DNA of 64,000 nucleotides from NCBI RefSeq assembly GCF_013366925.1, contig NZ_JAALDK010000002.1:806001-870000 (forward strand). Reading direction: 5' to 3'. Under the pieces are notes generated by a model, which was not told the DNA's origin, searched no databases, and was given only the letters and a program-made list of their open reading frames with translations. Position 1 is the first letter of the stretch. The number at the start of each line of letters is the position of its first letter. Position numbers and translations under genes: made by a program. Shown in pieces: positions 13,375-56,660 of this stretch. The stretch comes from Paraburkholderia youngii (GTDB lineage: Bacteria > Pseudomonadota > Gammaproteobacteria > Burkholderiales > Burkholderiaceae).

Positions 13375-13401
13375 CGAACAGTGTTCGTATATAAGTATAA
13401 T
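13375..13401 (+). promoter_or_regulatory. TGAAC-type palindrome and -10 box before the MFS gene
   Basis: CGAAC-AGT-GTTCG at 13375-13387 is a perfect palindrome. It is followed by TATAAT at 13396-13401, a good -10 box for the MFS transporter gene. The palindrome would sit in the -35/-10 spacer. It belongs to the repeated TGAAC-N3-GTTCA set found at six other places in this window. Confidence 0.55.
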
Positions 13402-13430
13402 CGAAACGATACATGCAACCGGAGACGTTC

Positions 13431-14852
13431 ATGCAAGCAGAAGTACTCTCCCCGCAGGCACACCGAGCGCAACGCGTAGCGGGACCACCACGTGGGTTCA
13501 CGATCGCGATCCTGCTTGCCGCGGTAGCGGCTTCGTCTGGCATCACCGTCATCTATACGGTGCTGGTCACGCTCTACAAGGCCTTTCCTGCGTCGAACTC
13601 CGTGAGCTGGACCGTGACCGCATACTGGCTCGGCTCGGCCGCCTTTGCAGCGGTGAGTGGGCGACTCGGTGACCTGTTGGGCTACCGCAGAATCCTGCTG
13701 GTGGTGATGTCTGTCGCTGCGGTCGGCGCAGTCGTCGCGGCGTGCGCGACCGACGTCGGCATACTCGTCGCGGGTTGTGCGATGCAATCGATCGCGGCAG
13801 GCATCACGCCGCTCTCAATCGGGTTGGTTCGTGAGAACCTGCCACCCGCCAGGGTGCCTGCCGCGGTCGGATTGATCAGTGCGGCGGGAATGGTGTCGGC
13901 GGGGCTGATTTACATCTGCGCGGGCGTCGTCGTGGATCATTATTCGTGGCAGGGCGGCTTCTGGTTCAAAGTCGCGCTGTGCGTCGTCGCCGTCGCCGCC
14001 GTACGCGCGTGGGCACCACCGTCTCCGCCGAATCCCGGCGTCCGGATCGACTACATTCGAGGCCTTGCGTTCGCTCCGGCACTGTGTGCCATCCTCTTCG
14101 CAGTGCAGGAAATCCGCGCGTGGGGACTCGGCGATGTGCGGCTATGGGCTTTGATCGTTGGCGGGATGATCGTGCTCGGACTCTGGGCACGCCATCAACT
14201 CGGAGCCCGTCATCCGCTCATCAACGTACGTCTGCTGAAAATGCGCGAAGTCGTATTGGCGAATGCATGCATGGCATTCCTCGCGGCTGGCGCCATGCAG
14301 TTGGGGCAGGTTTTCTCGCTGCTCGCCCAGCAACCTGCCGGCACGCACGCCGGATTCGGGCTGAGCGCAACGACGGCTGGACTGCTGATGTTTAGCATCA
14401 ACATCGTCGCGCTGGTCGCAAGCCCGTGGAGCGGCCGTGTTGCGGCCCGCTACAAGGCCCGCCCCGCTGCCATGATCGGCATGCTCATACTGGCCCTGGC
14501 CTGGGCCTCACTGATCGTGCTTCATCGCAACCTGCTGCTCTTCGTGCCAGGTGCGGTGCTGTGCTCGTTCGGCCTCGCCTTTACGAGCACTGCGCTGTAC
14601 AACCAGATCGTGGAAACGACGCCTGCACATCAGACAGGCGAGGCAACGGGCATGCTCTACGTGTTCTTCTCGTGTTTCTTCGCGGTAGGCGCCCAGGCGG
14701 TCTTTTCACTACTGCGCAGCGCGACGGCCGGACACAGCGGTGCATCGTTTCCCGCCGATAGCGGCTATGTTTCGGTATTCGTCTACATTGCCTGCAGTTC
14801 GATTGCCGGACTGCTGATCGCTTCCATGCTGCCGAAGCGTCGTACCAACTGA
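13431..14852 (+). CDS. MFS transporter, DHA2-like
   Basis: This integral membrane protein of about 473 residues is hydrophobic throughout, with roughly fourteen predicted membrane segments. The loop GRLGDLLGYRR matches the conserved MFS loop 2-3 signature. The DHA2-like length fits a drug:H+ antiporter, but members in catabolic clusters may import or export substrate or toxic intermediates. Two in-frame ATGs occur, at 13413 and 13431; the second follows CCGGAGAC and is preferred. It converges with the IclR gene across a strong hairpin. Confidence 0.85.
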   Translation: MQAEVLSPQAHRAQRVAGPPRGFTIAILLAAVAASSGITVIYTVLVTLYKAFPASNSVSWTVTAYWLGSAAFAAVSGRLGDLLGYRRILLVVMSVAAVGAVVAACATDVGILVAGCAMQSIAAGITPLSIGLVRENLPPARVPAAVGLISAAGMVSAGLIYICAGVVVDHYSWQGGFWFKVALCVVAVAAVRAWAPPSPPNPGVRIDYIRGLAFAPALCAILFAVQEIRAWGLGDVRLWALIVGGMIVLGLWARHQLGARHPLINVRLLKMREVVLANACMAFLAAGAMQLGQVFSLLAQQPAGTHAGFGLSATTAGLLMFSINIVALVASPWSGRVAARYKARPAAMIGMLILALAWASLIVLHRNLLLFVPGAVLCSFGLAFTSTALYNQIVETTPAHQTGEATGMLYVFFSCFFAVGAQAVFSLLRSATAGHSGASFPADSGYVSVFVYIACSSIAGLLIASMLPKRRTN

Positions 14853-14913
14853 TTGTCGTTTCGATCGATGCGTTGGGCTTAGGTGCAACGCATCTCAAAC
14901 TGCGCCACGCCCA

Positions 14914-14945
14914 CTGCGCGGTGAAGCACGCGCTTCACCGCGCAG
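14914..14945. terminator. Bidirectional terminator between MFS and IclR genes
   Basis: A perfect 13-bp inverted repeat, CTGCGCGGTGAAG and CTTCACCGCGCAG with a 6-base loop, lies between the two convergent genes. There is no T-run, as is common in GC-rich genomes. Confidence 0.7.
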
Positions 14946-14961
14946 CCGACCGCCCGGCCAG

Positions 14962-15768
14962 TCACTCCTCTTCTGCTTGCCCCAACGCGGACGCCCGCTG
15001 AGCGACTCTGATCATGTTCTCTTCGAGTCGATGACGTTCGCGGTCGAAGCGCTCGAGCGGCGCACCAATCGCCATCGCCGCGATCACATTGCCATTCGGC
15101 CCGAAGATCGGCGACGACACACCGGCGGAATCCGGCAGCAGTTCGCCGCGACTCACCGACAGGCCGCTTTGGAGAATATGATCGAGTTCGTCACGCAGCG
15201 CCTTCTTCGTTGCGATCGTTTGCGGCGTGCGGCGCTCGAACTTGACCGACTTCATGTAATCGGTAACGAAAGCGTCCGGTGCGTGGGCCAGCAGTACGCG
15301 TCCCGCAGCCGTGCAATAGAGCGGGCGACGCAGACCGATGTGCATTGAATAGCGCACCGATTGCTCGCTTTCGATCACGTCGACATAGGTGATCTCTTTG
15401 TGCTCGGCGTCAAGGACACCGATATACACGGTTTCATTGGTGCTCTTCGAGAGATCCACCAGGAACGGGCGCAGCATCTTCGAGAAGTTCCACGCGGCCA
15501 TCACACCCGCGGACAACCGGAAGATCGACGGCCCTAAACGATAGCGGCCTGCGTCGTGCATCAAGAACCCTTCCGCCACTAGAGGCCTCAGCAGATTGAG
15601 CAGGCTGCTCTTGGGTGACTCGAGGGCGACGTTCAGTTCTGCCAGCGACATACCGTCCGGAGACTTTGCCAGAACATCGAAAATTCCGAGGAGTCGGGTC
15701 AGCGAGCGCGGCCCGCTGACGTCCCGGTCCGCCGGCGCTGAGGTCTCTTTCAACATGATTTTCCCCAT
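14962..15768 (-). CDS. IclR-family transcriptional regulator
   Basis: This 268-residue protein has the N-terminal winged helix of IclR regulators (SLTRLLGIFDVLAKSPDGMS, about 22-41) followed by the GAF-like effector domain. The latter includes the conserved LYCTAAGRVLLA segment and a C-terminal ISSPIFG-like strand (VSSPIFGPNGNV). IclR proteins control catabolic operons for aromatic and terpenoid compounds, often as activators. ATG 15768 or the fourth-codon-downstream ATG (MLKE) could be used. It is divergent from the SDR at 16004. Confidence 0.88.
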   Translation of the reverse strand: MGKIMLKETSAPADRDVSGPRSLTRLLGIFDVLAKSPDGMSLAELNVALESPKSSLLNLLRPLVAEGFLMHDAGRYRLGPSIFRLSAGVMAAWNFSKMLRPFLVDLSKSTNETVYIGVLDAEHKEITYVDVIESEQSVRYSMHIGLRRPLYCTAAGRVLLAHAPDAFVTDYMKSVKFERRTPQTIATKKALRDELDHILQSGLSVSRGELLPDSAGVSSPIFGPNGNVIAAMAIGAPLERFDRERHRLEENMIRVAQRASALGQAEEE

Positions 15769-15890
15769 GAATTGACTGTATCGATTATACGGGAACTATT
15801 CACATAGTTTTACAACGATCGCAATGTGGCACACTTTTGCGCCATCCGAATTCGGGAATACGCCAGGGCGCCCCCGCTCTCTTGTTACGA

Positions 15891-15909
15891 TATAGTTGAA
15901 CGACGTTCA
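15891..15909 (+). promoter_or_regulatory. TGAAC-type operator with -10 box before SDR gene
   Basis: TGAACG-A-CGTTCA at 15897-15909 is a perfect 13-base palindrome placed directly after a TATAGT box at 15891-15896. It lies 95 bases before the SDR start at 16004. This is one of the two best copies of the operator shared across the window. Confidence 0.65.
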
Positions 15910-16003
15910 TAAAATTGGAATGCCGGGCATCACTTTCCGGAACATCCCCGAGGTGCGCTTGCGCGCCGAACAACACCATTCACCATCACTTTCGGACTCA
16001 CAC

Positions 16004-16768
16004 ATGCACACGAAAAAACTGGCAGAAAAGGTCGCCATTGTGACCGGAGGTGGGCAAGGCCTCGGACTCGGTATTGCCCGCGCACTTGCCGCCGAAGGAG
16101 CGAGCCTGGTCCTGACTGGCCGTACGGAGGCCAAACTCACGCAGGCTGCAGAGGAATTGACCGCCCATGGCTCACGAGTGCTCGTGGTGCCCGGTGATAC
16201 GCGCAATCGCGCCGACGCCGTTCGGACAGTCGAGCTTGCCGTCGAGCGGTTCGGACGTGTAGACGCGCTTATCAACAATGCGCAAAGCAGCAGCCCGGGT
16301 GTACCAGTTGAGTCTGTTACCGACGATGACTGGAGTAATACGCTCGAGTCGGGCCTATACGGTACGCTGTATTTCATGCAAGCCGTATTGCCGCAGATGA
16401 AGTCGCGAGGCCGCGGCGCCATCATCAACTTCGGTTCACGCACCGGCATCGAAGGTCTCAAGGGGTTCGGCGCGTACGCCGCAACCAAGGAGGGCATTCG
16501 TGGTCTCTCGCGCGTCGCGGCGCGCGAATGGGGCGCCTATGGCATTACCGTCAATGTAATTTGCCCGGCAGCGCTAACGCCTGCTGCCGAAGCCTACCTC
16601 GAGGCCAACCCCCAGGAACGCACTCGCTATCTCTCTGAAATTGCAGTTGGGCGCTTCGGCGATCCTCAGCGCGATATTGGACGAACAGTTGCATTTCTGT
16701 GCAGTGACGACGCTAATTTCATAACAGGGCAGACTATCAGTGTGGACGGCGGGCAGTCAATGCTTTAG
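16004..16768 (+). CDS. Short-chain dehydrogenase/reductase, FabG-like
   Basis: This 254-residue SDR has the cofactor loop TGGGQGLG at 14-21, INNAQ at the NNAG position, a serine in NFGSRTG and the catalytic YAATK. The C-terminal DGGQSML is typical of 3-oxoacyl reductase-like SDRs. The frame is open back to 15896, but that region contains the operator at 15897-15909, which argues for the later ATG at 16004 where homology begins. It is divergent from the IclR regulator, which may also control it. Confidence 0.85.
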   Translation: MHTKKLAEKVAIVTGGGQGLGLGIARALAAEGASLVLTGRTEAKLTQAAEELTAHGSRVLVVPGDTRNRADAVRTVELAVERFGRVDALINNAQSSSPGVPVESVTDDDWSNTLESGLYGTLYFMQAVLPQMKSRGRGAIINFGSRTGIEGLKGFGAYAATKEGIRGLSRVAAREWGAYGITVNVICPAALTPAAEAYLEANPQERTRYLSEIAVGRFGDPQRDIGRTVAFLCSDDANFITGQTISVDGGQSML

Positions 16769-16817
16769 TGCGTCTTTTTGAACGTAGTGCAATATATGAA
16801 ACGAACAGTTGCATTTC
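16681..16817. repeat. 17-bp direct repeat across the SDR 3' end
   Basis: The sequence ACGAACAGTTGCATTTC occurs at 16681-16697 inside the SDR gene and again at 16801-16817 after its stop, exactly 120 bases apart. The bases just before each copy are also similar. It may be the footprint of a small local duplication or a strand-slippage event. Confidence 0.75.
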
Positions 16818-16972
16818 GATAGATTAAGAAATGATCTAACTAAACAGATCGTTGCATTATCGCGAACTTCGATCCGAGAAATGATTTTGCGCCCGGCGCG
16901 TAACACCAAGATCGAAGAGTGATCAGGGACGACTTCTCCTCTCACACACTTCGCGAGAGCGTGTGGAGTTTG

Positions 16973-17009
16973 GCCTTGGCTGCGGGACACCGAGCCAAGG
17001 CGTTTTTTT
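16973..17009 (+). terminator. Strong rho-independent terminator
   Basis: GCCTTGGCT at 16973-16981 pairs with AGCCAAGGC at 16993-17001, an 11-base loop lies between them, and seven Ts follow at 17003-17009. It acts on rightward transcripts and lies 205 bases after the SDR stop with no gene in between. Confidence 0.8.
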
Positions 17010-17161
17010 CATCGCTGGTTTTTGATGTGTTCGTCGACGCAGGAGCGTTTGCACGTGCAGCCTCCAAGGCTCACCGTCGCCCGCAAAAACAATCAACGGC
17101 TTGTGGGGAAACGTCGAGTTGGATGCGCATCGCGAGAGAGCGACGCGCGAGAAGACCACCG

Positions 17162-17193
17162 AGCCGGCCCTCCAGAGCAATGCAGGGCCGGCT
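17162..17193. terminator. GC-rich hairpin
   Basis: AGCCGGCCCT at 17162-17171 and AGGGCCGGCT at 17184-17193 form a perfect 10-bp stem with a 12-base loop. It could terminate either strand; there is no T-run. Confidence 0.45.
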
Positions 17194-17497
17194 GCCCCGC
17201 GTCGCGCTAGAAGTTGGAGGCCGATCGCGGAGAGTGCGGTTTCGAACCGTCTGTTAAGAAGGTTCTTAAAACCATTCCGACGTGAAGGACGGCAAGTGCA
17301 CGTCCATCCAGTCGAATTCGCTGCGGCAGTTCCCCCAGGCCCACGGCGGTGACTTCCCGCCTCGTCCGGCAGCGTCCGAACCTTGATGCGGGCGCGAGAT
17401 GTCCCGGCCCTCCCTGTCCGAGTCGATTTTTCCTACTGCTGACTGGTCTGTACTTGCGATGCGACTATTGCCTATCCCGGTCGTCATGACTCGCCCC

Positions 17498-18952
17498 CTA
17501 GCTGCAATTTTTTACCATTTCTTCGATTACCTTCTTCGCATCGCCGAACACCATCATCGTCTTGTCCATGTAGAAGAGCTCGTTGTCGAGGCCCGCATAA
17601 CCCGCGGCCATCGAGCGCTTGTTCACGATGATCGTGCGCGCCTTGTACGCTTCGATGATCGGCATGCCCGCGATCGGCGACTTCGGATCGTTCTTCGCCG
17701 CTGGATTCACCACGTCGTTCGCGCCGAGCACCAGCACTACGTCGGTCTGGCCGAATTCGTTGTTGATGTCCTCCATTTCGAACACGAGGTCGTAGGGCAC
17801 CTCGGCTTCCGCGAGCAGCACGTTCATGTGACCGGGCATGCGGCCCGCCACGGGGTGAATCGCATAGCGCACGTCCACGCCCTTTTCGACGAGCTTGTCG
17901 GTCAGTTCCTTCAGCGCATGCTGCGCGCGCGCCACCGCGAGACCGTAGCCCGGCACGATCACGACACTCTCGGCGTTGCCCAGCATGAACGACGCATCAT
18001 CGGCGGAGCCCGACTTCACCGGACGCTGCTCCTGCGCGCCAGCCGCTGCCGCTGAGCCAGCCTCGCCGCCGAAGCCGCCAAGCAGCACGCTGAAGAACGA
18101 GCGGTTCATCGCGTGGCACATGATGTACGACAGAATCGCGCCGGAAGAGCCCACGAGCGAACCCGCGATGATCAGCATCGCGTTGTTCAGCGAGAAGCCG
18201 ATACCCGCCGCCGCCCAGCCCGAGTAGGAGTTCAGCATCGACACGACCACCGGCATGTCCGCACCACCGATCGGAATGATGATCAGCACACCGAGCACGA
18301 ACGCGATGATTGTCATGATGATGAACGGCAGCCACGATTGCGTGAGGAAGAACAGGACACCGAAGCCGAGCATCGCGAGCGCGAGCATCAGGTTGATCAG
18401 ATGCTGGCCGGAGTAGACCACGGGCCCGCCCTGAAACAGCCGGAACTTGTACTTGCCCGACAGCTTGCCGAAGGCGATCACCGAGCCGCTAAACGTAATC
18501 GCGCCGACGAAGGTGCCAATGAACAGCTCGATACGGTTGCCGTATGGCAGGAAGCCGGGATACGGCGCATCTTCTGCAACGAGCCCGAATGCGGCGGGAT
18601 CGGAAACTACCGCGTACGCAATGCAGACAGCAGCAAGACCGATCAGCGAATGCATCGCCGCGACCAGCTCGGGCATCTTCGTCATCTCGACGCGTGCGGC
18701 GATATACGCGCCAAGACCGCCGCCCACCACGAGCGCCGTGAAAAGCAACGCAAGCCCGAGCCCGAGATTCGAGCCGAACTGCGCGGACTCCTTCACGATG
18801 AGCGCAAGGGTGGTGAGAATGGCGATCGCCATGCCGACCATGCCGAAGGTATTGCCAGCGCGCGCGCTCCTCGGGTTGGAAAGCCCTTTGAGCGCCTGAA
18901 TGAAACAGACCGACGCCACCAAATAAAGCAGCGTAACGAGGTTCATGCTCAT
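17498..18952 (-). CDS. pntB: NAD(P) transhydrogenase, beta subunit
   Basis: This 484-residue protein is PntB. It has nine or so membrane segments forming the proton channel and a C-terminal NADP(H)-binding domain with VPGYGLAVARAQHAL and VLGANDVVNPAA. Together with PntAA and PntAB it forms the proton-translocating transhydrogenase of the inner membrane, which makes NADPH from NADH at the cost of the proton gradient. It is the last gene of a leftward three-gene operon. NADPH supply for the island's reductases is a plausible local use, although the enzyme is a general housekeeping one. Confidence 0.95.
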   Translation of the reverse strand: MSMNLVTLLYLVASVCFIQALKGLSNPRSARAGNTFGMVGMAIAILTTLALIVKESAQFGSNLGLGLALLFTALVVGGGLGAYIAARVEMTKMPELVAAMHSLIGLAAVCIAYAVVSDPAAFGLVAEDAPYPGFLPYGNRIELFIGTFVGAITFSGSVIAFGKLSGKYKFRLFQGGPVVYSGQHLINLMLALAMLGFGVLFFLTQSWLPFIIMTIIAFVLGVLIIIPIGGADMPVVVSMLNSYSGWAAAGIGFSLNNAMLIIAGSLVGSSGAILSYIMCHAMNRSFFSVLLGGFGGEAGSAAAAGAQEQRPVKSGSADDASFMLGNAESVVIVPGYGLAVARAQHALKELTDKLVEKGVDVRYAIHPVAGRMPGHMNVLLAEAEVPYDLVFEMEDINNEFGQTDVVLVLGANDVVNPAAKNDPKSPIAGMPIIEAYKARTIIVNKRSMAAGYAGLDNELFYMDKTMMVFGDAKKVIEEMVKNCS

Positions 18953-19273
18953 TTACGCACCCTCCTTGCCGGTGAGCTTCTTCGGCTCTTTCTTGCGGAA
19001 CATCTCCAGCATGCGCCGCGTGACGAGGAATCCGCCGAACACGTTGACGGCCGCGAGCAGCACGGCGAACGTGCCGAAGAACTTGCCCGCCCCGCCCACG
19101 GTCAGTCCCGTTGCCAGCATCGCGCCGACGATGACGATCGCCGAAATCGCATTGGTCACGGCCATCAGCGGCGTATGCAGAGCAGGCGTGACGTTCCAGA
19201 CCACGTGATAGCCGACGTAGACGGCTAGCACGAAGATGATCAGATTGATGACCGTATGATTGATCACTTCCAT
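18953..19273 (-). CDS. pntAB: NAD(P) transhydrogenase, alpha subunit part 2 (membrane)
   Basis: This 106-residue membrane protein supplies the three transmembrane helices that in Escherichia coli are fused to the end of PntA. The segment [20 protein letters not shown] is the conserved membrane stretch, and a Lys-rich tail follows. The ATG at 19273 is preceded by AGGAG; an in-frame start at 19294 has no such site. The stop directly abuts the pntB start, implying coupled translation. Confidence 0.93.
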
Positions 19274-19290
19274 TCCTGTTCTCCTTCTCG

Positions 19291-20442
19291 TCATGCCTTG
19301 CGCGTGACCTGGCCGTCACGGGCCAGCAGCGTAGCCGCGACGATGTCGTCCGCGGGATCGATGTTGAGGATGCCCTCCTTCGTGACGATCAGCTTCAGGA
19401 AGTCGAGCAGATTGCGCGCGTAGAGCGCGGAGGCATCGGCGGCGACCATCGAAGCGAGGTTCGTGTAGCCGCAGATCTGCACCCCATGGTGCGTCACGAC
19501 CTTGTCGGCCTCGGTGAGGGGGCAATTGCCGCCGCGCCGTCCCGTGGCCTGCTCGGCGACCGGACCGCGTCCCGCCGCGAGGTCGATCACGACCGAGCCC
19601 GGCTTCATCGCCTGCACGGTTTCCGAAGGCAGCAGCGTCGGCGCGTCGCGGCCCGGAATCAGTGCGGTCGAGATGACAATGTCGGCCTGCTTTGCGCGCT
19701 CATGCACCAGCGCCGACTGGCGCGCGAGCCACGACGGCGGCATCGGCCTCGCATAGCCGCCGACACCCTGCGCGGCCTCGCGTTCCTCATCGGTTTCGAA
19801 CGGCACGTCGAGAAACTTTCCGCCGAGAGACTCGATCTGCTCCTTGACCGCCGGGCGCACATCGGAAGCTTCGATCACCGCGCCAAGGCGCCGCGCCGTG
19901 GCAATGGCCTGCAGACCCGCCACGCCCGCACCAAGAATCAGCACGCGCGCCGCCTTCACGGTGCCTGCGGCGGTCATGAGCATCGGCATGAAGCGCGGAT
20001 AAAGGTTCGCAGCCAGGAGCACCGCCTTGTACCCGGCGATATTGGCCTGCGAGGACAGCACATCGAGGCTCTGTGCGCGCGTCGTGCGCGGTGCGGCTTC
20101 GAGCGCGAACGCGGTGACGCCAGCCGCGGCGAGTGTGGTCGCATTGTCGGCGTTGAAGGGGTCGAGCATGCCGACGAGCACCGAACCACGCTTCATCAAC
20201 GGCAATTCGCTCTGCGTTGGCGACTGAACCTTGAGCACGAGGTCCGCGCCGAAGGCGGCAGCCGCGTCGGCTACCCGCGCGCCCACGGCGATGTACGCCT
20301 CGTCAGGATAGCTCGCGCCAATTCCCGCCCCGGTCTGGATCGTCACCGTGTGTCCCTGGGCGACGTATTTCCTGACTGTTTCGGGTGTCGCGGCCACACG
20401 GCTTTCGTTCGCCCGCGTTTCCGCGGGGATTCCAATGTGCAT
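19291..20442 (-). CDS. pntAA: NAD(P) transhydrogenase, alpha subunit part 1 (NAD-binding)
   Basis: This 383-residue soluble subunit binds NAD(H). It shows the alanine-dehydrogenase/PNT N-terminal domain ([17 protein letters not shown]) and the Rossmann loop [20 protein letters not shown]. It lacks the membrane segment, which is encoded separately by pntAB, the arrangement seen in many alpha- and beta-proteobacteria. The ATG at 20442 follows AGGAG; longer upstream frames have no support. It is the first gene of the pnt operon. Confidence 0.95.
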
Positions 20443-20562
20443 CAAAGTACTCCTGATTGCATATGGGTGGTATGAACGTACCCACGAGGCCTGCTGCGGG
20501 AGGCAGCAACCATTCGACCTTCGGGCGCAACGCACCCCTCAAGGAACTGATGGGTAATCCAT

Positions 20563-20593: not shown

Positions 20594-20611
20594 CACAGGC
20601 TTTTCCGCGCT

Positions 20612-21901: not shown

Positions 21902-22696
21902 TCAGCGGCCGACGAATTTCGCCGCACGTTTTTCGATGAAGGACTGAACACCTTCCTTGGCATCTTCAGTGTTGTAGAGAAACTGCTGGGTCGACTGAAT
22001 GGTCGCGTAAGCATCCTGCCAGCCTTGTCCCAGTGAAACCCGCGCGTTCTGCATCGTGGCCTGCACGGCTAGCGGAGCCTGCGCCGCAATTCGCTCTGCG
22101 ATCGCGAGCGCCCGGTCGAACTCCTGCCCCGCGGGCACGACATCCTGCACGAAGTTCATGTGCCGCGCCTCTTCCGCGGTGAATTCGTCGCCAGTAAGTA
22201 GTACCTTCATCGCGTTGCCCCAGCCGGCACGCTGGACCATGCGGAACGTCGCACCACAACCTGCCATGATCCCCCGCTTGACTTCAAGCTGGGAGAAACG
22301 GCAGTTATCGGCCGCCACAGCCACTTCCGAAGCGAGCATCAATTCGACCGCAACCGTGAAACAGATTCCCTTGAGCGCAATGACGACCGGCTTGGTGCGC
22401 AGCGGCGCGCGCAAGTTGAACGGATCTACCTCGCCTTCAGGAAGCAGGGATTTCCCTTCCCGGCGCAATGGCGCGATCTTCGGCATGTCGAGCCCTGCCG
22501 TAAAGTGATCCCCTTCGGCGTAGACCAGCCCGCAAAAAATATCGCTGCTCTGTTCGAGCTGCGTGTAAGCCATGGCCAGTTCGCGGAACATCTTCGGGGT
22601 AAATCCGTTGCGCTTTTCCGGCCGGTCGATGCCCATCAAAAGCAGGTTCCCGCGCTGCTCAACGCGAATCTGTCCGTCCTCGTGACGAGTAGTCAT
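21902..22696 (-). CDS. Enoyl-CoA hydratase/isomerase family protein
   Basis: This 264-residue crotonase keeps glutamates at both positions of the enoyl-CoA hydratase pair, Glu118 in VAVELMLA and Glu138 in FSQLEVKRG, so hydratase or isomerase activity is possible. The usual Gly-Gly-Gly before the first Glu is replaced by Thr-Val-Ala, and the second loop reads MAGCGATFR, so it is not a standard short-chain enzyme. ATG 22696 follows GAGGAGA. It is divergent from another crotonase at 22897 and shares an operator region with it. Confidence 0.83.
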   Translation of the reverse strand: MTTRHEDGQIRVEQRGNLLLMGIDRPEKRNGFTPKMFRELAMAYTQLEQSSDIFCGLVYAEGDHFTAGLDMPKIAPLRREGKSLLPEGEVDPFNLRAPLRTKPVVIALKGICFTVAVELMLASEVAVAADNCRFSQLEVKRGIMAGCGATFRMVQRAGWGNAMKVLLTGDEFTAEEARHMNFVQDVVPAGQEFDRALAIAERIAAQAPLAVQATMQNARVSLGQGWQDAYATIQSTQQFLYNTEDAKEGVQSFIEKRAAKFVGR

Positions 22697-22747: not shown

Positions 22748-22791
22748 TTGACAAAGCCGGGCCTCACATTCAGAATCATAAACGTCGTTCA
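22748..22791 (+). promoter_or_regulatory. Promoter with TGAAC-type operator for crotonase-thiolase operon
   Basis: TTGACA at 22748-22753, a 17-base spacer and CAGAAT at 22771-22776 form a good promoter reading right. Two bases later begins TAAACG-T-CGTTCA (22779-22791), a one-mismatch copy of the shared 13-base palindrome. It lies where a repressor would cover the transcription start. The site could also serve the divergent crotonase gene at 21902. Confidence 0.65.
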
Positions 22792-30023: not shown

Positions 30024-30055
30024 TCAATATCGTTCATATTCTGCAACGGCGTTCA
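30024..30055. promoter_or_regulatory. Two degenerate TGAAC-type sites around a CAGAAT box
   Basis: Between the divergent P450 and SDR genes, GCAACG-G-CGTTCA at 30043-30055 and TCAAT-ATC-GTTCA at 30024-30036 each keep one good half-site (CGTTCA). Read leftward, a CAGAAT box (30043-30038) lies just before the second site, the same -10 sequence and spacing as at two stronger copies of this operator. No clear -35 is visible. Confidence 0.4.
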
Positions 30056-37847: not shown

Positions 37848-37893
37848 TGAACTATGTTCGATTTTGCACGAATGTGCAAGATCGTTTTATCAT
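37848..37893. promoter_or_regulatory. Divergent P450/TetR promoters with two palindromes
   Basis: TGAAC-TAT-GTTCG at 37848-37860 matches the shared operator and covers the leftward -10 (CATAGT, 37856-37851), which lies 17 bases from TTGCAC (37879-37874). TTGCAC-GAAT-GTGCAA at 37864-37879 is a second, perfect palindrome covering the -35 boxes of both promoters. The rightward TTGCAC (37864-37869) is 18 bases from TATCAT (37888-37893). A repressor bound here would block both the P450 operon and the TetR gene. Confidence 0.6.
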
Positions 37894-37947: not shown

Positions 37948-38676
37948 ATGCCGTCCAGAACCACTCACGCCGCGAGCAGCCCGGCGACTGCCATCAATGA
38001 GCCGCGCGCCACGGCGCGCAGCACGACGCCAGAGCGCATTCTCGATACGGCCGAGCGGCTGTTCGCGATGCACGGCTACTTCGGCACATCGATTCGCGAC
38101 ATCATGCAGAGCTGTGGCATGGAGCTGAGCCTCGCGCGCTACCACTTCGGCAGCAAAGACGCGCTGTTTCAACAGGCGATCGGCCGTCGCGCGGCCGTGA
38201 TCAGCCGGCAGGTCATCGAATCGCTCGAGGCCGGACTCGTGCCGCTGCGAGGCAAGCTTCCCGATGTCGAGACGATCGTGACCGCACTTTCCGCACCGGC
38301 TTTCGCGCATCTGACGAGCGGCGATCCGGGGTGGCGAAACTACCTGCGCCTGCTGACCCAGATTGGCTGCCTTCTGGAGCGCCCCGACCTCACGGCGCCG
38401 TTTTATGACCAATACGCGCCGGCGGCCGCGCGCTATCGTGACGCCTTCGCCAACGCGCTTCCTCATGCCACGCGGGAGACCGTCGAACTGGTGCAGCATT
38501 TCGTCGAGTCCGTGTTTCATCTCGTGCTCAACGAGCTTTACGCGCAGGAAGCGCGATCCAGAACACGGGCACTCGCGACGGCGCATATCGAGCGCATGCG
38601 CACCTACCTGATCCGTTTCGCGGTTGGCGGCATCGAGGGGATGGTCAGCTCCACGGCGGCTCAGCGGGGTTCATGA
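37948..38676 (+). CDS. TetR-family regulator
   Basis: This protein of about 242 residues has a TetR DNA-binding domain at about 26-75: RILDTAERLFAMHGYFGTSI, then the recognition helix region with LARYHFGSKDALF. The C-terminal ligand domain is typical of regulators of P450 and fatty-acid-like catabolic genes. The ATG at 37948 lies after AAAGGGAAA; the longer frame from 37837 would include both promoter palindromes and is unlikely. It is divergent from the P450 operon and is the best candidate for the protein that binds the operators shared across the window. Confidence 0.87.
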   Translation: MPSRTTHAASSPATAINEPRATARSTTPERILDTAERLFAMHGYFGTSIRDIMQSCGMELSLARYHFGSKDALFQQAIGRRAAVISRQVIESLEAGLVPLRGKLPDVETIVTALSAPAFAHLTSGDPGWRNYLRLLTQIGCLLERPDLTAPFYDQYAPAAARYRDAFANALPHATRETVELVQHFVESVFHLVLNELYAQEARSRTRALATAHIERMRTYLIRFAVGGIEGMVSSTAAQRGS

Positions 38677-49362: not shown

Positions 49363-49414
49363 CGCGGATGCCTCTTCAAACGACTCTTGAATAAGGTGAC
49401 CGGCCTGCGGCCAA

Positions 49415-49645: not shown

Positions 49646-49689
49646 GAGCTTGCTCTATTGATGATGGAAATTCCGGGAGCGCGTGCTCG

Positions 49690-50682
49690 TCATTTCAGCG
49701 TCGCGCGAACCGCCGCTTCGATGTCTGCCACGCCCGGCGCGAACGCGTCTTCGAGCGGCTTGGAGAACGGCACGGGGCAGAATTGCGCGCCCACGCGCTG
49801 CACCGGCGCCTTGAGTTCGCGAAAGAGGGCCTCGTAGATGCGAGATGCGATTTCAGCACCCACGCCGAACGGCTTGACGGCCTCGTGCACCACGACGGCG
49901 CGCCCTGTTTTGGCAACCGAAGTCAGGATGGTTTCGGTATCCAGAGGCGAGACCGTGCGCAAATCGATCACTTCGCAGGCGATCCCATCCTTGGCGAGCG
50001 CCTCCGCGGCGACCATGACCTCTTGCACGCGGCGGCTGTAACTGATCAACGTGACGTCCGTGCCTGCGCGCACGACGTTGGCCTTTCCAAGTGGAATCGC
50101 CACGCCGCGCTCCGGCACATTGCCCGGGTTCCAGTAGGTCGGCATGTTCTCGATGAACAGACAAGGGTCGTCGTCGCGGATGCAGGACAGCATCAGGCCA
50201 TACGCATCGGCAGGATTCGAAGGTGCGACCACCTTGATGCCGGCGACGTGCGCGAACCACGCTTCAAGGTAGTCCGCGTGCTGACCACCCGTGCCGAAGC
50301 CGGCACCGGTCATCGTGCGGATCACGATCGGCACGTTGGTCTGCCCGCCCGACATGAAGCGCAGTTTCGCCGCGTGATTCACGATCATGTCCATCGCGAC
50401 GGTCGTGAAGTTCATCAGCATGATTTCCGCCACCGGGCGCATGCCGACCATCGAAGCGCCGATTGCCGCACCGATGATGGCCTGCTCCGAGATCGGCGTC
50501 GAACGCACGCGCGACGTGCCGTATTTCGACGATAGTCCCTTCGTTACGCCGACAATGCCGCCTTCCTGACCGTCGGCAACGTCTTCACCCAGCACGATCA
50601 CGTTGACGTCGGCGGCCATTGCATCGTCGAGCGCGAAGTTGACGGCCTGGATAGTGTTGATGTTGGTTGGCATCTGGCTCAT
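49690..50682 (-). CDS. 2-oxoacid/acetoin dehydrogenase-type E1 component, beta subunit
   Basis: This 330-residue protein is the beta chain of a thiamine-diphosphate-dependent E1. It shows the signature IVLGEDVADGQEGGIVGVTKGL and the segments PISEQAIIGAAIGASMVGMRPVA in pieces, and matches the pyruvate/acetoin dehydrogenase E1-beta length. The ATG at 50682 overlaps the alpha-subunit stop and is preceded by GAGG. With the alpha subunit it decarboxylates a 2-oxoacid or cleaves a vicinal diketone/acyloin. Confidence 0.9.
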   Translation of the reverse strand: MSQMPTNINTIQAVNFALDDAMAADVNVIVLGEDVADGQEGGIVGVTKGLSSKYGTSRVRSTPISEQAIIGAAIGASMVGMRPVAEIMLMNFTTVAMDMIVNHAAKLRFMSGGQTNVPIVIRTMTGAGFGTGGQHADYLEAWFAHVAGIKVVAPSNPADAYGLMLSCIRDDDPCLFIENMPTYWNPGNVPERGVAIPLGKANVVRAGTDVTLISYSRRVQEVMVAAEALAKDGIACEVIDLRTVSPLDTETILTSVAKTGRAVVVHEAVKPFGVGAEIASRIYEALFRELKAPVQRVGAQFCPVPFSKPLEDAFAPGVADIEAAVRATLK

Positions 50683-51665
50683 GCAAGCACCTCGTCCTTG
50701 AAGATGTCGCGACGAAGCTCAGCGACATCGGGATATTCGCTCGACAACGTGAATTCGACCGCAGCGTCGATCTGCGCCTCGTGCCCGGCTTCCATCGCAG
50801 CCAGTTGCTGTTCGGTCGCATGCTTTGCATCGATGAGCCACTGGCGGAAGAGCGGCACGGGGTCCTTGGCGACCCAGGCCGCCTTTTCGTGCTTGTCCAT
50901 GTACGCGTCCGGATCGCCAAATACATGGCCCTGAAAGCGGAACGTGTTCGCTTCGATGAGCGTCGGGCCGCCACCGTCACGCGCACGCTCGACCGCCTCG
51001 CGCGCCGCCTTGTGCATCGCGATCGGATCGTTGCCGTTCACCGTCACGCCGGGCATCTGGTACGCGACCGCGCGTTGCGCGATGTTGGACACGGAGGTGC
51101 CGTAAGCGTATTTGGTGTGCTCGGCGTAGCCGTTGTTCTGGCAGACGAAAATCACCGGCAGCTTCCAGACGGACGCCATGTTCAGTGACTCGTGGAACGC
51201 GCCGATGTTGGATGCGCCATCGCCGAAGTAAGCGACTGCCACGCGCCGTTCACCGCGAATCTGCGCGGCAAGCGCCAGGCCATTCGCAATTGGCATCGAA
51301 CTGCCGACGATGCCGGTCGTGACCATCACGCCGGAAGCGGGATGGGTAACGTGCATCGGACCGCCCTTGCCCTTGCAGGTCCCGGTCACTCGTCCACCGA
51401 GTTCGGCCCAGAGTTCCTTGAGCGGCACACCTTTGGCGATCATGTCGTGAACACCGCGGTAGATCGTGCAGATGTAGTCGTCATCGGTGAGACACACCGA
51501 CATCGCCGACGGAATCACTTCCTGCCCGCGCGGCGAGTAGTACGGCATGACCAGCTTGCCGGCCTTGATCACGGCGCGAAAGCGCTCATCGTTCTGCTTG
51601 ATGAGTGTCATGCGCCTGTAGATGTCGACCAGGACTTCGCTGCTGGGCGGCTGATAGGCATTCAT
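50679..51665 (-). CDS. 2-oxoacid/acetoin dehydrogenase-type E1 component, alpha subunit
   Basis: This 328-residue alpha chain carries the thiamine-diphosphate motif from Gly148-Asp-Gly to Asn177-Asn178 (GDGASN then CQNNGY). It is closer in length to acetoin-dehydrogenase AcoA and branched-chain-type alpha chains than to the single-chain E1 of pyruvate dehydrogenase. With E1-beta, lipoyl protein and E2 core it would oxidatively cleave an alpha-keto group. No E3 (lipoamide dehydrogenase) gene is in the window, so E3 would have to come from elsewhere. Confidence 0.9.
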   Translation of the reverse strand: MNAYQPPSSEVLVDIYRRMTLIKQNDERFRAVIKAGKLVMPYYSPRGQEVIPSAMSVCLTDDDYICTIYRGVHDMIAKGVPLKELWAELGGRVTGTCKGKGGPMHVTHPASGVMVTTGIVGSSMPIANGLALAAQIRGERRVAVAYFGDGASNIGAFHESLNMASVWKLPVIFVCQNNGYAEHTKYAYGTSVSNIAQRAVAYQMPGVTVNGNDPIAMHKAAREAVERARDGGGPTLIEANTFRFQGHVFGDPDAYMDKHEKAAWVAKDPVPLFRQWLIDAKHATEQQLAAMEAGHEAQIDAAVEFTLSSEYPDVAELRRDIFKDEVLA

Positions 51666-51681
51666 TCGTCACTCTCCTGTG

Positions 51682-53391
51682 TCACCAGATCTTTTGCGCG
51701 CCGCTCGAATGCAGCGCCGCGATGTAACCGAACACGAACGATGCGCCGATGCTGCTGCCGGCGCCCGGATAACACCGGCCAACCACGGATGCCGTGCAGT
51801 TGCCGGTGGCGTACAGCCCAGGGATTTGCGAACCGTCGTCCTTCAGCACACGTCCGAACTCGTCAGTCACGAGACCGCCTGCAGTGCCGACATCGCCTGG
51901 ATACATGCGCACCGCGTAGAACGGGCCCTGCTCGATCGGCCCGAGATTCGGGTTCGGTTTGATGGTCGGGTCACCATGGCAGCGATCGAATGCACGCGAG
52001 CCGCGGCCGTAATCTTCGTCGACGCCCGTTTTGCAGAAGCCGTTGAAGCGCTGGACGGTCTTGAGCAGGCCAGCGCGATCGATGCCGCATTTCGCGGCTA
52101 GCTCTTCGAGCGTGTCGGCCTTGATCATGTATCCACTGTCGAGCCACTTCTGCGGAATCTGGCCCGGCATCGCGGTGCCCCACGGGTAATATTTGCGCTG
52201 GCGGCTGTCCATCACGACCCACGCGGGCACCGCCTTTCCCGTCTGCTTGTGGCGCTCGTACATGCGTTGACCGATCTCCATGTACGCTCCCGCTTCGTCG
52301 CAAAAGCGCTCGCCATCCTGATCGACCATGATCGAAAACGGCAGCGAGAGGTCGAGGTGATGCATGAACGGCAACGGCGAACCATCCGGAGCGCGCGCAC
52401 CTTCCGGCAGTTCCTCGTTGGGGCCGAGCGACGTCACGACCCACCACGCTTCTTCCATGCAATCCACCGCGCCGCCGAGCGCGATCGCAGCTTGCAGGAT
52501 TTCACCGGTATCGCCTGGATTCGCATTGGTCCAATCCGCGGACGACGGCTGCGGCTGGTACTTGCGGCGCATTTCAGCGTTGTGTGAAAAGCCACCCGTA
52601 TTGAGCAGCACGCCCTGACGAGCGCGCACGCGCAACTCGCGGCCGCTGCGCACTGCGACAATGCCGACCACCCGCCCCTCCTCGACGATGAACTCCCGCA
52701 CCGGCGTGTCCGTCCAGATCGGCACGTTCGCGCGCAGCGCCATCTGAAGCATGCGCCCCTGAATCGCCGCACCGTTCGCCACGAGCTCCTTGCCGGTGAT
52801 CTTCTGATAAAGCATGCGGCCGCCGAGCTGCATCGCCTTGCGCTTGCCGCCCCACGTCCGCTTCATCAGAAACAGTGTCGGGTACTCGTCCGAGTTGGCT
52901 GGCATCGACGGGCCTTTATAGCGCGACAAGCGCGGCGCCCATTCGCCCAGTTCCTTCACGTCGAACAACTTCGCCAATAGCGAGCGGCCACGGGGCTCCC
53001 CGCCGGGCAGCGTGTCGTAGTAATCGGACCAGCCGTCCGCGTACACGAACTGCATCCCCTGCTGCTCGAGAAACTCGGCCATCTTCGGCCCGGTGCGCAG
53101 GTAAGCCTCGCGTCGCGCATGCGAGGTGCCCGGACCTTGATACGTCACCGCGGCGTCGAAGTACTGCCGTGCGCGCTCATACGAATCGCTTACGCCGTGG
53201 CGCTTCATCACGTGATTGTTCGGCAGCCACCAGACACCGCCCGAATAGCCGGTCGAGCCACCGACCTTCGCCTGCTTCTCGATGATCAGCGCTTCCTTGC
53301 CCACCGACTTGCAGGCAAGCGCCGCACACATCGAACCACCGCCGCTGCCGACCACCACGAAGTCGTACGTTGCGTCCCAGCTCGTCGACAT
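51682..53391 (-). CDS. KstD-like FAD-dependent dehydrogenase
   Basis: This 569-residue flavoprotein resembles 3-ketosteroid delta1-dehydrogenase. FAD binds at GSGGGS (15-20). Near the C-terminus CYPGAGSSIGASFVFGYIAA matches the KstD pattern; Tyr541 and Gly545 correspond to Tyr487 and Gly491 of the Rhodococcus enzyme, which protonate and hold the 3-keto group. It would desaturate a cyclic ketone next to the carbonyl. Other KstD tyrosines cannot be placed by eye. Its ATG shares one base with the Rieske gene stop (TGATG) and has GGAGGAG. Confidence 0.85.
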   Translation of the reverse strand: MSTSWDATYDFVVVGSGGGSMCAALACKSVGKEALIIEKQAKVGGSTGYSGGVWWLPNNHVMKRHGVSDSYERARQYFDAAVTYQGPGTSHARREAYLRTGPKMAEFLEQQGMQFVYADGWSDYYDTLPGGEPRGRSLLAKLFDVKELGEWAPRLSRYKGPSMPANSDEYPTLFLMKRTWGGKRKAMQLGGRMLYQKITGKELVANGAAIQGRMLQMALRANVPIWTDTPVREFIVEEGRVVGIVAVRSGRELRVRARQGVLLNTGGFSHNAEMRRKYQPQPSSADWTNANPGDTGEILQAAIALGGAVDCMEEAWWVVTSLGPNEELPEGARAPDGSPLPFMHHLDLSLPFSIMVDQDGERFCDEAGAYMEIGQRMYERHKQTGKAVPAWVVMDSRQRKYYPWGTAMPGQIPQKWLDSGYMIKADTLEELAAKCGIDRAGLLKTVQRFNGFCKTGVDEDYGRGSRAFDRCHGDPTIKPNPNLGPIEQGPFYAVRMYPGDVGTAGGLVTDEFGRVLKDDGSQIPGLYATGNCTASVVGRCYPGAGSSIGASFVFGYIAALHSSGAQKIW

Positions 53392-54749
53392 CACTCCTCC
53401 CGCGCGATGAATTCGCGCAGCGCGCGATGGAAGTTCGAAACCGACGTTTCCTGCAGCGGATTCGTGCGCGAACCCTTGAAGCCGCGCGACTTCATCCCCT
53501 GCTGCACGTTGGTCATGTTCTGGAAGTCCTGCCACAGGATCAGGCCGAAGTTTTCCTGAGCGTTCTCTTTCCAGTCATCAACACCGTAGTAGAACTCGCG
53601 CTTGAGCGGCGGCTCCGCGCCCGGCGCGAAGCGCTGCAGCGACCAGATGTCGTAGATGCACGAATCGGGGTTATCGCCGTCCGGGCGCGCGCGGTAAAAG
53701 AGCGCGCCGTCGGGGTACGGAAGAAACACGAGGTTCGGGAAGACATGCCAGTCCGCTCCCGCGCGACCGAGTTGCTCGAACGTGATCTCCGGCCAGCCGG
53801 CGCCCTCGGCGATCGCCGCTTCGCGCTGGAAATCCATTGCCTTTGCGAGGACTTCGAACTGGTTACCCGAGGGCGACATTTCCGTCATCAGCCGCTTCGC
53901 CGCTTCGTAGTCGCGCGCGGTATTGATTGCTTTCAGGGTCTCTTCCATCACACGGAAGAAGTTGACGAGACCCTGACGCACGTCCTCCGGCATCGGCTTG
54001 CCGGTTCGCGGTGACGGCGCGCCGATCATGCGCGTGGCCGTCGAGTAGCCGAACATGCCGTGGCGGCCGTAGGCAAAGCTTCGCGTTACGTCATCTCCCG
54101 CGACATCCAGCAACTGAGGATGTGTTGCCGCGACGTGATAACCCTCGGTGAACGCTTCGAGTGCAACCTTCCAGTTGCACGGAAGACGAATCGACTTGTA
54201 CCAGCGGTAGCGCATCTTCTCGAACTCGAAGCAGTTCGTGATCTCCGGTACCGGATCGAGGAATTTAGCGAGCGGCTCCGCGTTCGGGTCCATGTTGATG
54301 AACACGAAGCCGCCCCACGTGTCCACCAGAACATCGGTGAGACGCAGATCACCGTCAGTCATTTCCTCGCAGCCGGCCCAGTCGTCACGATCGAGCACGC
54401 GCGCGACGCCGCCATCCAGATTCCACTGCCATCCGTGATAGGCACAGTGAAATTTCGAGGCCTTGCCGCTGCCGTTGGTCAAGCGACGGCCACGATGCTG
54501 ACAGACGTTGAAAAAGGCCTTGATCTGATCGGCCGCCGTTCGCACCACGATGATCGATTCGCCGGCCACGTCGAAGGTGACGTAGTCGCCGACGTTGGGA
54601 ATTTCTTCCAGCCGACATGCAACCTGCCACACGTGCGGCCACAGGCGCTCGTTCTCCCGCTCGAGAAATTGCTTCGACAGGTAACTGTCCTTCGGCACAA
54701 AATCGAGACGGACCGTGTGTTCACCCGAATCGGGACCTCTGTTACCCAT
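53391..54749 (-). CDS. Rieske non-haem iron oxygenase, alpha subunit
   Basis: This 452-residue oxygenase binds a Rieske cluster through Cys83, His85, Cys102 and His105 (VCQHRG and HCAYHGW). Iron in the catalytic domain is held by His205 and His210 in EGYHVAATHP. It needs electrons from a ferredoxin and reductase, such as those at 38775-40379; none is adjacent. It is the first gene of the long leftward operon and overlaps the KstD-like gene. The steroid parallel is KshA plus KstD, but this protein is longer than KshA and the family assignment remains broad. Confidence 0.9.
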   Translation of the reverse strand: MGNRGPDSGEHTVRLDFVPKDSYLSKQFLERENERLWPHVWQVACRLEEIPNVGDYVTFDVAGESIIVVRTAADQIKAFFNVCQHRGRRLTNGSGKASKFHCAYHGWQWNLDGGVARVLDRDDWAGCEEMTDGDLRLTDVLVDTWGGFVFINMDPNAEPLAKFLDPVPEITNCFEFEKMRYRWYKSIRLPCNWKVALEAFTEGYHVAATHPQLLDVAGDDVTRSFAYGRHGMFGYSTATRMIGAPSPRTGKPMPEDVRQGLVNFFRVMEETLKAINTARDYEAAKRLMTEMSPSGNQFEVLAKAMDFQREAAIAEGAGWPEITFEQLGRAGADWHVFPNLVFLPYPDGALFYRARPDGDNPDSCIYDIWSLQRFAPGAEPPLKREFYYGVDDWKENAQENFGLILWQDFQNMTNVQQGMKSRGFKGSRTNPLQETSVSNFHRALREFIAREE

Positions 54750-54852
54750 TGCTATCTCCTTCGTGATGTGGCCGGCGTAGGCGCCGGTTCCGACTCTTTA
54801 TGTTGTGGCCGGGTGGTTCGCAATCGATATGCAACGACCGGTTCAATTGTTG

Positions 54853-54896
54853 TGAACGGCGTTCAGATGCTAGGCTGACGCCCGAATTGCTGTCAA
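54853..54896 (-). promoter_or_regulatory. Promoter and perfect TGAAC-type operator of the long operon
   Basis: Read leftward, TTGACA (54896-54891), an 18-base spacer and TAGCAT (54872-54867) form a strong promoter. One base later lies TGAACG-C-CGTTCA (54865-54853), a perfect copy of the shared palindrome, at the likely transcription start. It controls the roughly 13.5-kb unit from the Rieske oxygenase gene. Confidence 0.75.
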
Positions 54897-54908
54897 TCCG
54901 GGCGAACG

Positions 54909-55841
54909 TCAATCGAGCGCTGCGGTCAGCGCCGGAACAGCTTCGAACAGGTCCGCACTGAGACCGTAGTCGGCCACCTGAAAGATCGGTGCCTCTGCGT
55001 CTTTATTAATCGCGACGATGACCTTCGAATCCTTCATGCCGGCGAGGTGCTGAATCGCTCCCGAGATGCCCACCGCGATATACAACTGAGGCGCGACGAT
55101 CTTGCCCGTCTGACCGACCTGATAATCGTTCGGCACGAAGCCGGCGTCGACCGCCGCACGCGACGCGCCCACGGCCGCACCAAGCTTGTCCGCAAGCGCG
55201 TCGAGGAGCTTGAAGTTGTCACCGTTCTGCATGCCACGGCCGCCCGACACCACGATGTTTGCCGCCGCAAGCTCCGGCCGGCTCGATTTCGTGAGTTCCT
55301 GCCCGACAAAGCGGGCCCTATCGAAAGCCGGCGCCGATGCAACAGCGCGTGACGGCGCGGCGGTCGAACCGGTCGCTGCTGCATCGAACGCGGTCGGGCG
55401 AATGGTGATGACTTTGATCGGGTCGGACGATTGCACTGTTGCTAGTGCATTGCCGGCATAGATCGGACGCACGAAAACATCGGCAGCCTTGAAGGCAACG
55501 ACATCGGAAATCTGCGCGCTATCGAGCAGCGCGGCCGCACGGGGCATGAAGTTTTTGCCCACCGCCGTGGACGCTGCGATCACGTGTGTATAAGCGCGGG
55601 CCAACGAGACCACGAGTGCGGCGAGGTTTTCCGGTAACCCGTGCGCGTATTCGGGTGCTTCCGCGACGAGCACTTCGGCGACACCGGCTACGTTCGCGGC
55701 TTGCTCGACGACGGCCGACGCGCCGTGGCCCGCCACCAGCACATGAATGTCGCCACCCACTGCGCCCGCCGCCGTGATGGCGTTGAGCGTGGCGCGCTTC
55801 AGGGTCGCATTGTCGTGTTCGGCGATAACGAGAATAGTCAT
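54909..55841 (-). CDS. etfA: Electron transfer flavoprotein, alpha subunit
   Basis: This 310-residue protein is ETF-alpha. The C-terminal FAD-binding domain shows [12 protein letters not shown] and [13 protein letters not shown], and [21 protein letters not shown] is the family signature (seen in parts). It forms a heterodimer with EtfB, accepts electrons from acyl-CoA dehydrogenases and passes them to ETF-ubiquinone oxidoreductase. The gene is two bases after etfB. This is probably a second, pathway-linked copy, because it is under the shared operator. Confidence 0.95.
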
Positions 55842-55843
55842 GA

Positions 55844-56593
55844 TCAGATCACCTTCGCTTCGTTTCGAAGCTTTTCAATCAGCGCTGCAACATCCGGAAC
55901 CATCACACCGCCCTTGCGCGCCGGTGGCTCGGTCACTTCGAGAACCTTCAGGCGAGGCGCGACGTCAACGCCCAGCGCTTCAGGATTCAGCGTATCGAGA
56001 GGCTTCTTCTTCGCTTTCATGATGTTGGGCAGCGTCACATAGCGTGGACTGTTCAGGCGCAGATCAGTCGTGATCACCGCGGGCAGATCGAGAGCGACGC
56101 GTTCGAGACCGCCATCGATTTCACGCGTGACGAGCAGTTGCTGACCATCCACTTCCGTCTTGAACGCAAACGTCGCTTGCGGCCAGCCGAGCAATGCGGC
56201 GAGCTTCTGCCCGGTTTGACCAGCGTCGTTGTCGATGGCCTGCTTGCCGAGCAAGAACAGTTGCGGGTTTTCCCGCGCGGCTACGGCGGCCAGCAGCTTT
56301 GCGACCGCGAGCGGCTGCAGATCCGCATCGCTCTCCACTAGCACCGCACGATCCGCCCCCATGGCGAGTGCCGTACGCAGTACCTCCTGCGATTGCGCGG
56401 TGCCCGCCGATACCACGACGACTTCAGTCGCAACGCCTGCTTCCTTGAGGCGCACCGCCTCCTCCACCGCGATCTCGTCGAACGGGTTCATGGCCATTTT
56501 TACGTTGGCCAGATCGACGCCCGAGCCGTCGGACTTGACCCGAGGTTTCACGTTGTAGTCGATCACGCGCTTCACCGCGACCAGTATCTTCAA
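55844..56593 (-). CDS. etfB: Electron transfer flavoprotein, beta subunit, TTG start
   Basis: This 249-residue protein is ETF-beta, recognised by [19 protein letters not shown] at the start, [18 protein letters not shown] and GADRAVLVE. The start codon is TTG at 56593, with GGAG seven bases upstream. No ATG occurs near the conserved N-terminus, so the weak start seems genuine and could balance subunit levels. It leads a two-gene operon with etfA. Confidence 0.95.
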
Positions 56594-56615
56594 TTTGACG
56601 CTCCGAACGCTTTGT

Positions 56616-56660
56616 TGAACAATGTTCTATATTCTGAACCGTTTTTTTTGTAGCTGTCAA
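56616..56660 (-). promoter_or_regulatory. Promoter and TGAAC-type operator of etfBA
   Basis: Read leftward, TTGACA (56660-56655), an 18-base spacer and CAGAAT (56636-56631) are followed after two bases by AGAAC-ATT-GTTCA (56628-56616). The -10 box and the two-base gap equal those of the promoter at 22748-22791. The site could also regulate the rightward gene at 56731. Confidence 0.65.

Follow-up and report, generated by a model that had tools for sequence, protein, structure and literature searches.

A conserved palindrome as the probable common operator of a catabolic island in Paraburkholderia youngii, with an IclR-family protein as its candidate reader

What unites the promoters of a large catabolic island in Paraburkholderia youngii, and which protein controls them? 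We analyzed 64 kb of the 9.49-Mb genome of this species (G000:C2:806001-870000, the whole stretch being called the window hereafter), in which an earlier note had listed copies of a 13-base palindrome at promoters and proposed a regulon of P450s, the Rieske operon, crotonase-thiolase genes and ETF. Every listed copy is present where it had been placed, and the regulon is strongly supported and larger than proposed, as it adds a DUF1302 gene and two beta-oxidation-like operons. Present at the head of nearly every operon of the island and long conserved, the palindrome almost certainly acts as the switch of a single regulon. We give a probability of roughly 60% to the reading that it is the common operator of a regulon over a conserved terpenoid- or steroid-type catabolic island, read by a repressor, the IclR-family protein encoded at 14962..15768 on the minus strand (IclR-14962; Pfam IclR_C 7e-37, HTH_IclR 5e-8). 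An island common to a set of Paraburkholderia and a Trinickia thus becomes one testable regulon, with an operator list and a candidate regulator.

The operators share the consensus YGAAC-RNY-GTTCR, with variants at the outer bases. The leftmost, at 13375..13387 (CGAACAGTGTTCG, CGAAC-AGT-GTTCG), lies between an amidohydrolase gene (11997-13193, minus strand) and an MFS gene (13413-14852, plus strand), and is followed at 15897..15909 by TGAACGACGTTCA (TGAAC-GAC-GTTCA), between the IclR gene on the minus strand and an SDR gene on the plus strand. Divergent crotonase genes flank the copy at 22779..22791 (TAAACGTCGTTCA, TAAAC-GTC-GTTCA), and a CYP101-like P450 gene (minus strand) and an SDR gene (plus strand) flank the one at 30043-30055 (GCAACGGCGTTCA, GCAAC-GGC-GTTCA). 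The remaining three are found in a divergent P450/TetR promoter (37848..37860, TGAACTATGTTCG, TGAAC-TAT-GTTCG), at the Rieske operon (54853..54865, TGAACGGCGTTCA, TGAAC-GGC-GTTCA) and at the ETF operon (56616..56628, TGAACAATGTTCT, TGAAC-AAT-GTTCT). The pair of copies described at 30024-30055 stood in part: the right one is a conserved palindrome, whereas the left one, at 30024 (TCAATATCGTTCA), has only its right half, GTTCA, conserved. The centres of these two copies are 19 nt apart, and an extra half-site, GTTC at 30032-30035, is conserved 8 bp from the operator at 30043.

Conservation is the decisive independent evidence for the operator. We projected the island from 11 genomes on the window, Burkholderia sp. 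H160 contributing its 20.7-kb locus only. The window contains 15 matches to the core AAC-N3-GTT, and each of the seven promoter copies (counting the right copy at 30024-30055) is kept in at least nine aligned relatives: 9/11 at 13375, 9/9 at 15897, 11/11 at 22779, 30043 and 37848, and 10/10 at both 54853 and 56616. The last two counts leave aside the metagenome-assembled Vsou symbiont, where the 54853 copy is missing, the Rieske gene itself being broken, and where no alignment covers 56616. The other eight matches are kept in 1/9, 5/11, 1/1, 1/11, 2/2, 5/11, 2/11 and 4/11 relatives; excluding those at 10029 and 18933, with only one or two relatives aligned, six remain for comparison, each kept in at most 5 of 9-11. 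The mean core identity of the seven operators is 0.995, against a mean of 0.778 and a maximum of 0.928 for placements shifted by 5-45 bases (0/5000). Five of the seven keep the core through changes in the spacer, which is itself invariant at 37848 and 56616; at 13375 the spacer differs from that of the window in 11/11 relatives and the core stays in nine. The two misses there, BL25I1N1 and P. rhynchosiae, have the right arm kept and the left arm degenerate, and the left arm is also degenerate in the genomes G803 and G818. The operator at 15897 is found in BL25I1N1, P. rhynchosiae, G803, G818, G848, G850 and G369 too, and that at 54853 precedes 16 of 17 Rieske loci (at least 87% identity, its own included), the exception being G829.

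The density of the palindrome depends on how strictly it is defined. With up to two mismatches it is not enriched, as the window has 25 for 20.7 expected and 26 of 100 shuffles reach 25. With 0-1 mismatch there are eight in the window and 172 in 9.49 Mb (Poisson 2e-5, a value flattered, like the other density P value given here, by a consensus derived from this window), and the control, the pattern read backwards, gives 70 genome-wide. The enrichment that the earlier note had proposed to look for with a matrix scan was found using IUPAC patterns instead: TGAACNNNGTTCD has 29 distinct sites in the genome, five of them in the window, i.e., 78 per Mb vs 2.5 per Mb elsewhere, or about 31-fold (P 8e-7). 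Because the consensus was taken from the window, we relied on conservation as the independent test. One of these five sites, the exact palindrome at 894, is a chance match inside the coding sequence of a MarR-family regulator (785..1282, plus strand), is kept in 1/9 relatives and does not belong to the operator class. We inspected 21 of the 24 sites outside the window, leaving out C2:1087523, C2:1202963 and C3:156312; 20 of these were inspected together and most lie inside long open frames, one of the 20, C1:4794324, belonging to another TetR. The twenty-first is C2:890562, a conserved copy to the right of the window. In Trinickia, YGAACNNNGTTCR occurs 33 times genome-wide (control 26), with five matches in the stretch equivalent to the window, and in P. 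rhynchosiae 32 times (control 12), with three.

Three more conserved copies lie to the right of the window, at window-equivalents 67106, 84382 and 84562, so that at least ten promoters over 71 kb carry the common operator. The first (C2:873106) is about 217 bases upstream of the DUF1302 gene and has a counterpart in seven relatives (P. atlantica, P. tuberum, CNPSo 3272, P. diazotrophica, CNPSo 3274, P. rhynchosiae and BL25I1N1); no counterpart was seen in P. podalyriae, nor does one accompany the DUF1302 protein of Trinickia, which matches at only 44%. The other two (C2:890382 and 890562) occupy the divergent region between the two beta-oxidation-like operons and are kept in all six relatives fetched there. 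No operator stands directly before pnt, as had been remarked, yet this is true only literally: pnt sits in a leftward run that starts at the divergent promoter at 22779, 76 bp behind a CoA-transferase gene by open reading frame limits (119 bp in the P. sprentiae annotation), and through this run it may belong to the regulon. Several relatives have nothing aligned at the position of the pnt stretch (17498-20535; about 17000-20400 of the window). Where pnt is present, it follows the crotonase/CoA-transferase run starting at the 22779 promoter.

The position of the operators relative to promoters points to how they act. A scan for TTGACA boxes (5-6 of 6 matches, N16-18) placed the operator start 2, 1, 2, 2 and 4 bases after the -10 box at 22779, 54853, 56616, 84382 and 84562, respectively; at 84562, pairs with gaps of 2 and 3 score next. 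The three close placements given by the earlier note are thus correct: 22779 follows a sigma70-type TTGACA-N17-CAGAAT on the plus strand (22748..22776, well conserved in the aligned block) by two bases, 54853 follows TTGACA-N18-TAGCAT on the minus strand by one, and 56616 follows TTGACA-N18-CAGAAT on the minus strand by two, its CAGAAT box being the one also found at 22779. The latter site additionally has a leftward TTGCCA-N17-TATGAT. Elsewhere the arrangement varies: 15897 abuts a TATAGT -10-like box with a weak -35, 37848 overlaps the -10 of the P450 gene (CATAGT, minus strand, with TTGCAC at N17), and 13375, 30043 and 67106 have weaker or differently placed pairs, e.g., TTGATG-N18-TATAAT on the minus strand, nine bases from 30043. 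An operator over the start point suggests repression. The repressor position that had been claimed agrees with the geometry at five promoters, where the operator begins 1-4 bases after the -10 box, and repression itself we infer.

In the mechanism that we propose, a repressor dimer bound to the operator would cover the transcription start directly behind the -10 box, and a pathway intermediate would release it. The P450, Rieske, ETF, crotonase-thiolase, beta-oxidation and DUF1302 operons would then be switched on together. IclR-14962 would bind the 13-bp pair, together with a third half-site 8 bp off (GTTY-N8-RAAC-N3-GTTC) in roughly half of the cases. Besides repression, what we infer in this scheme is which protein is the regulator, what induces the regulon and what substrate it serves.

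Judging from comparative sequence data, IclR-14962 is probably the regulator of these operators and the best-supported candidate. It was found in 11/11 genomes searched for it, as well as in G803, G818, G848, G850 and G369, and is present wherever sites and its locus were both examined. In the Vsou symbiont it has no in-frame stop and the 5/5 aligned sites persist. The 32.7-kb contig of G829 has no match to IclR-14962 or to the TetR encoded at 37948 (the rest of that genome was not searched for the IclR); the TetR encoded at 6588 (74%) and the Rieske gene are still there, and neither of the two promoters within the contig has its operator any longer. The third half-site (at least 3/4 bases) occurs at exactly 8 bp in 6/10 operators, for a background of 1.04 and with one of 2000 draws reaching six, and at other spacings from 3 to 15 in at most 3/10. 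The fit to a published IclR consensus is partial: the core RAAC-N3-GTTY agrees with the group-2 consensus TGRAACAN1-2TGTTYCA, as given in the available text of PMC8222616, with N1, and the outer base and the third-box spacing differ. With domain limits set by us, the DNA-binding region of IclR-14962 is identical to that of BL25I1N1 at 53/56 positions, compared with 41/50 for TetR-37948, 37/51 for TetR-6588 and 47/76 for the MarR protein.

Several observations weigh against IclR-14962. It is the most conserved outside the DNA-binding region as well (156/211 vs BL25I1N1, with 76/163 for TetR-6588, 106/168 for TetR-37948 and 39/82 for the MarR protein), which makes that measure weak. Of the six third boxes, four are in contact with the -10 box. 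Where the published group-2 consensus has G as the outer base, the operators here have T, and the third box, for which we read N9-10 in the group-1 consensus, is at N8. G829 is a single contig whose Rieske -10 box has decayed too. Both regulators are confined to island genomes, IclR-14962 being in 6/299 and TetR-37948 in 8/398 genomes of the family. Hence, their co-occurrence with the sites is mostly simple linkage, which leaves G803, G818 and G829 as the only cases that tell the candidates apart. Operators might also still be present because the loss of their regulator is recent. In the IclR promoter there is a private palindrome at 15794..15809 (AACTATTCACATAGTT), found in 12 aligned sequences, two of its bases being different in BL25I1N1 and P. 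rhynchosiae, and with no other 0-mismatch match in the window; it may be the real autoregulatory site of the IclR. Finally, an unrelated TetR on C1 (TetR_C_33, C1:4793432-4794256), beside a divergent epimerase/SDR gene, has TGAAC-N3-GTTCA-type palindromes at its promoter (C1:4794324; L003 position 1501, L182-L190). Among 31 genomes searched, nine (that of P. youngii being one of them) yielded this C1 TetR; eight of the nine loci have two tandem AAC-N3-GTT palindromes 14 bp apart, and the ninth (L185) has one. TetR proteins can thus probably use the same word, and cross-talk of the C1 TetR with the island operators is possible.

Could another protein read the operator? A rather unlikely answer is the TetR with an AefR-like C-terminal domain encoded at 6588..7298 on the plus strand (TetR-6588), or a regulator encoded elsewhere. 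TetR-6588 was found in 11/11 genomes searched and in G803, G818, G829, G848 and G850, and further TetRs lie to the right of the window (C2:874227-874886, and an AefR-like one at L170:9395-10075). However, the promoter of TetR-6588 has no conserved operator (the site at 6582 has two mismatches and is not conserved), its gene has an in-frame stop in the Vsou symbiont, where 5/5 aligned sites remain, and it is present on the G829 contig, where both sites are lost. The proposal that it is the regulator is not supported. As for the others, we did not find the TetR at C2:874227 in the stretches examined from P. rhynchosiae, BL25I1N1 and Trinickia, and the C1 TetR was not found in the Vsou genome (G242), which makes it an unlikely island regulator there.

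It is more doubtful still that TetR-37948 (37948..38676, plus strand, TetR_N and TetR_C_30) controls the whole island as a repressor, its own gene and the divergent P450 included. This protein has a TetR fold, and its nearest solved structures in a fold search are the repressor NicR2 and PA3006, which we take to be PsrA. It has a conserved operator in its divergent promoter, and the C1 TetR locus suggests that TetRs use TGAAC-N3-GTTCA; the PsrA site also lies near the start point in the available text of PMC13104628. TetR-37948 was our leading candidate; we dropped it when a search of the whole genomes G803 and G818 yielded no match to it, although six of the seven window operators retain an intact AAC-N3-GTT core there, that of the former TetR promoter (37848) among the six. 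It thus appears dispensable for keeping the operators and is likely a bystander; the loss of this gene in some relatives is what separates a likely bystander from a likely regulator. Distant homologues of TetR-37948 in the order, examined at the loci of 29 of the 38 non-own matches (30-38% identity), have no GAAC-N2-5-GTTC within 330 bases upstream, and three have PsrA-like TTCAAACG..CGTTTGAA-type palindromes, although these homologues are too remote to decide. Lastly, that the palindromes are convergent or chance words for several local regulators is very improbable: private palindromes at the IclR and P450/TetR promoters, the ordinary count at two mismatches and the use of the same word at the C1 TetR speak for it, and against it stand the conservation of 7/7 promoter copies vs 0/6 other testable copies, the near-equal offset from the -10 box at five promoters and the 31-fold density.

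A regulon read by IclR-14962 would be a known kind of system, to which the island would add a member with some unusual site detail. The available text of PMC8222616 describes IclR-family sites with three boxes of alternating direction and tandem centres 18-22 nt apart. Like those of PcaU, PobR and HmgR cited there, the operators here have the core RAAC-N3-GTTY, an alternating third half-site and catabolic operons as targets, and they resemble IclR-family sites in tandem centres about 19-21 nt apart. Unlike them, they have T and not G as the outer base and a third box at N8, and they serve at least ten promoters of one large island, with binding that is predicted. It is a tentative proposal that an IclR protein commands a ring-degrading island of more than 70 kb through TGAAC-N3-GTTCA and an N8 third half-site, a variant outside the published IclR consensus; as the same word stands at an unrelated TetR promoter, proteins of both families may use such operators jointly or in competition.

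TetR-family repressors of steroid catabolism, KstR, KstR2 and EdcR, would offer a parallel in role, with one repressor acting on several operons of a ring-degrading island, but here the local TetR can be missing while the sites persist. According to the available text of PMC8700777, the EdcR operator overlaps the -10 box, and its sequence, TnnCnnTACnAnTnGTAnnGnnA, differs from the operator described here. PsrA and NicR2 are the closest in sequence and fold to TetR-37948, and the arms of PsrA sites have AAC/GTT in common with the operator. In the accessible portion of PMC13104628, PsrA binds C/GAAAC-N2-4-GTTTG/C near the start point, with GAAAC/CAAAC arms unlike those of the island, and the NicR2 repeats in that of PMC6550519 (CTATATGTACAGCCATATAA) differ from the island operators too.

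The island occurs in 12 named records: ten Paraburkholderia (the Vsou symbiont among them), Burkholderia sp. H160 and Trinickia symbiotica. In P. sprentiae WSM5005, a root-nodule isolate, it lies on plasmid pl1 with a gene order known from annotation; this strain is one of several nodule isolates among the carriers. In the Vsou symbiont (L032 / G405, a 5.2-Mb genome) the island is decaying, with the broken Rieske gene and the stop in TetR-6588. The island encodes two P450s, one near P450cam (324 bits), a GMC oxidoreductase, a 3-ketosteroid-1-dehydrogenase-like protein, a Rieske oxygenase, ETF, crotonases and a thiolase, together with acyl-CoA dehydrogenases, CoA-transferases, MMPL, DUF1329 and DUF1302 proteins. 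From these protein families, a terpenoid- or steroid-type substrate can be proposed, and the pathway probably degrades plant terpenoids. In the literature searched, we recognised no paper covering this island or its operator.

The P450/TetR promoter carries a private element as well, TTGCAC-N4-GTGCAA at 37864..37879, which we read as two divergent -35 boxes. It is conserved and is the only 0-mismatch match in the window; G818 and G803, which lack the TetR gene, have an altered TetR-side half. Upstream of the ferredoxin-reductase gene, these two genomes have a TTGACA-N17-CACAAT promoter, behind which lies a degenerate palindrome, GAAC-N3-ATTC in G818 and GAAT-N3-ATTC in G803.

Two further matches to the palindrome with 0-1 mismatch were rejected as members of the operator class. 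The one at 22146 is coding. The one at 16779 (TGAAC-N3-GTGCA) is intergenic, 3' of the SDR stop, and is kept in most relatives, BL25I1N1 and P. rhynchosiae excepted. It opens a conserved block at 16779-17010 (TTTTTGAAC-N3-GTGCAATATATGAAAC) behind that stop, with a terminator-like hairpin and a T run, read by eye, near 16990-17010; an Rfam scan of the window gave no match, there or elsewhere. This block might encode a small RNA or be the remnant of a promoter. Ahead of the amidohydrolase gene there is a second conserved block, at 13250-13320 (ATATCGAAC..GTCGATATCGATTTGATATC), which resembles a regulatory site of its own.

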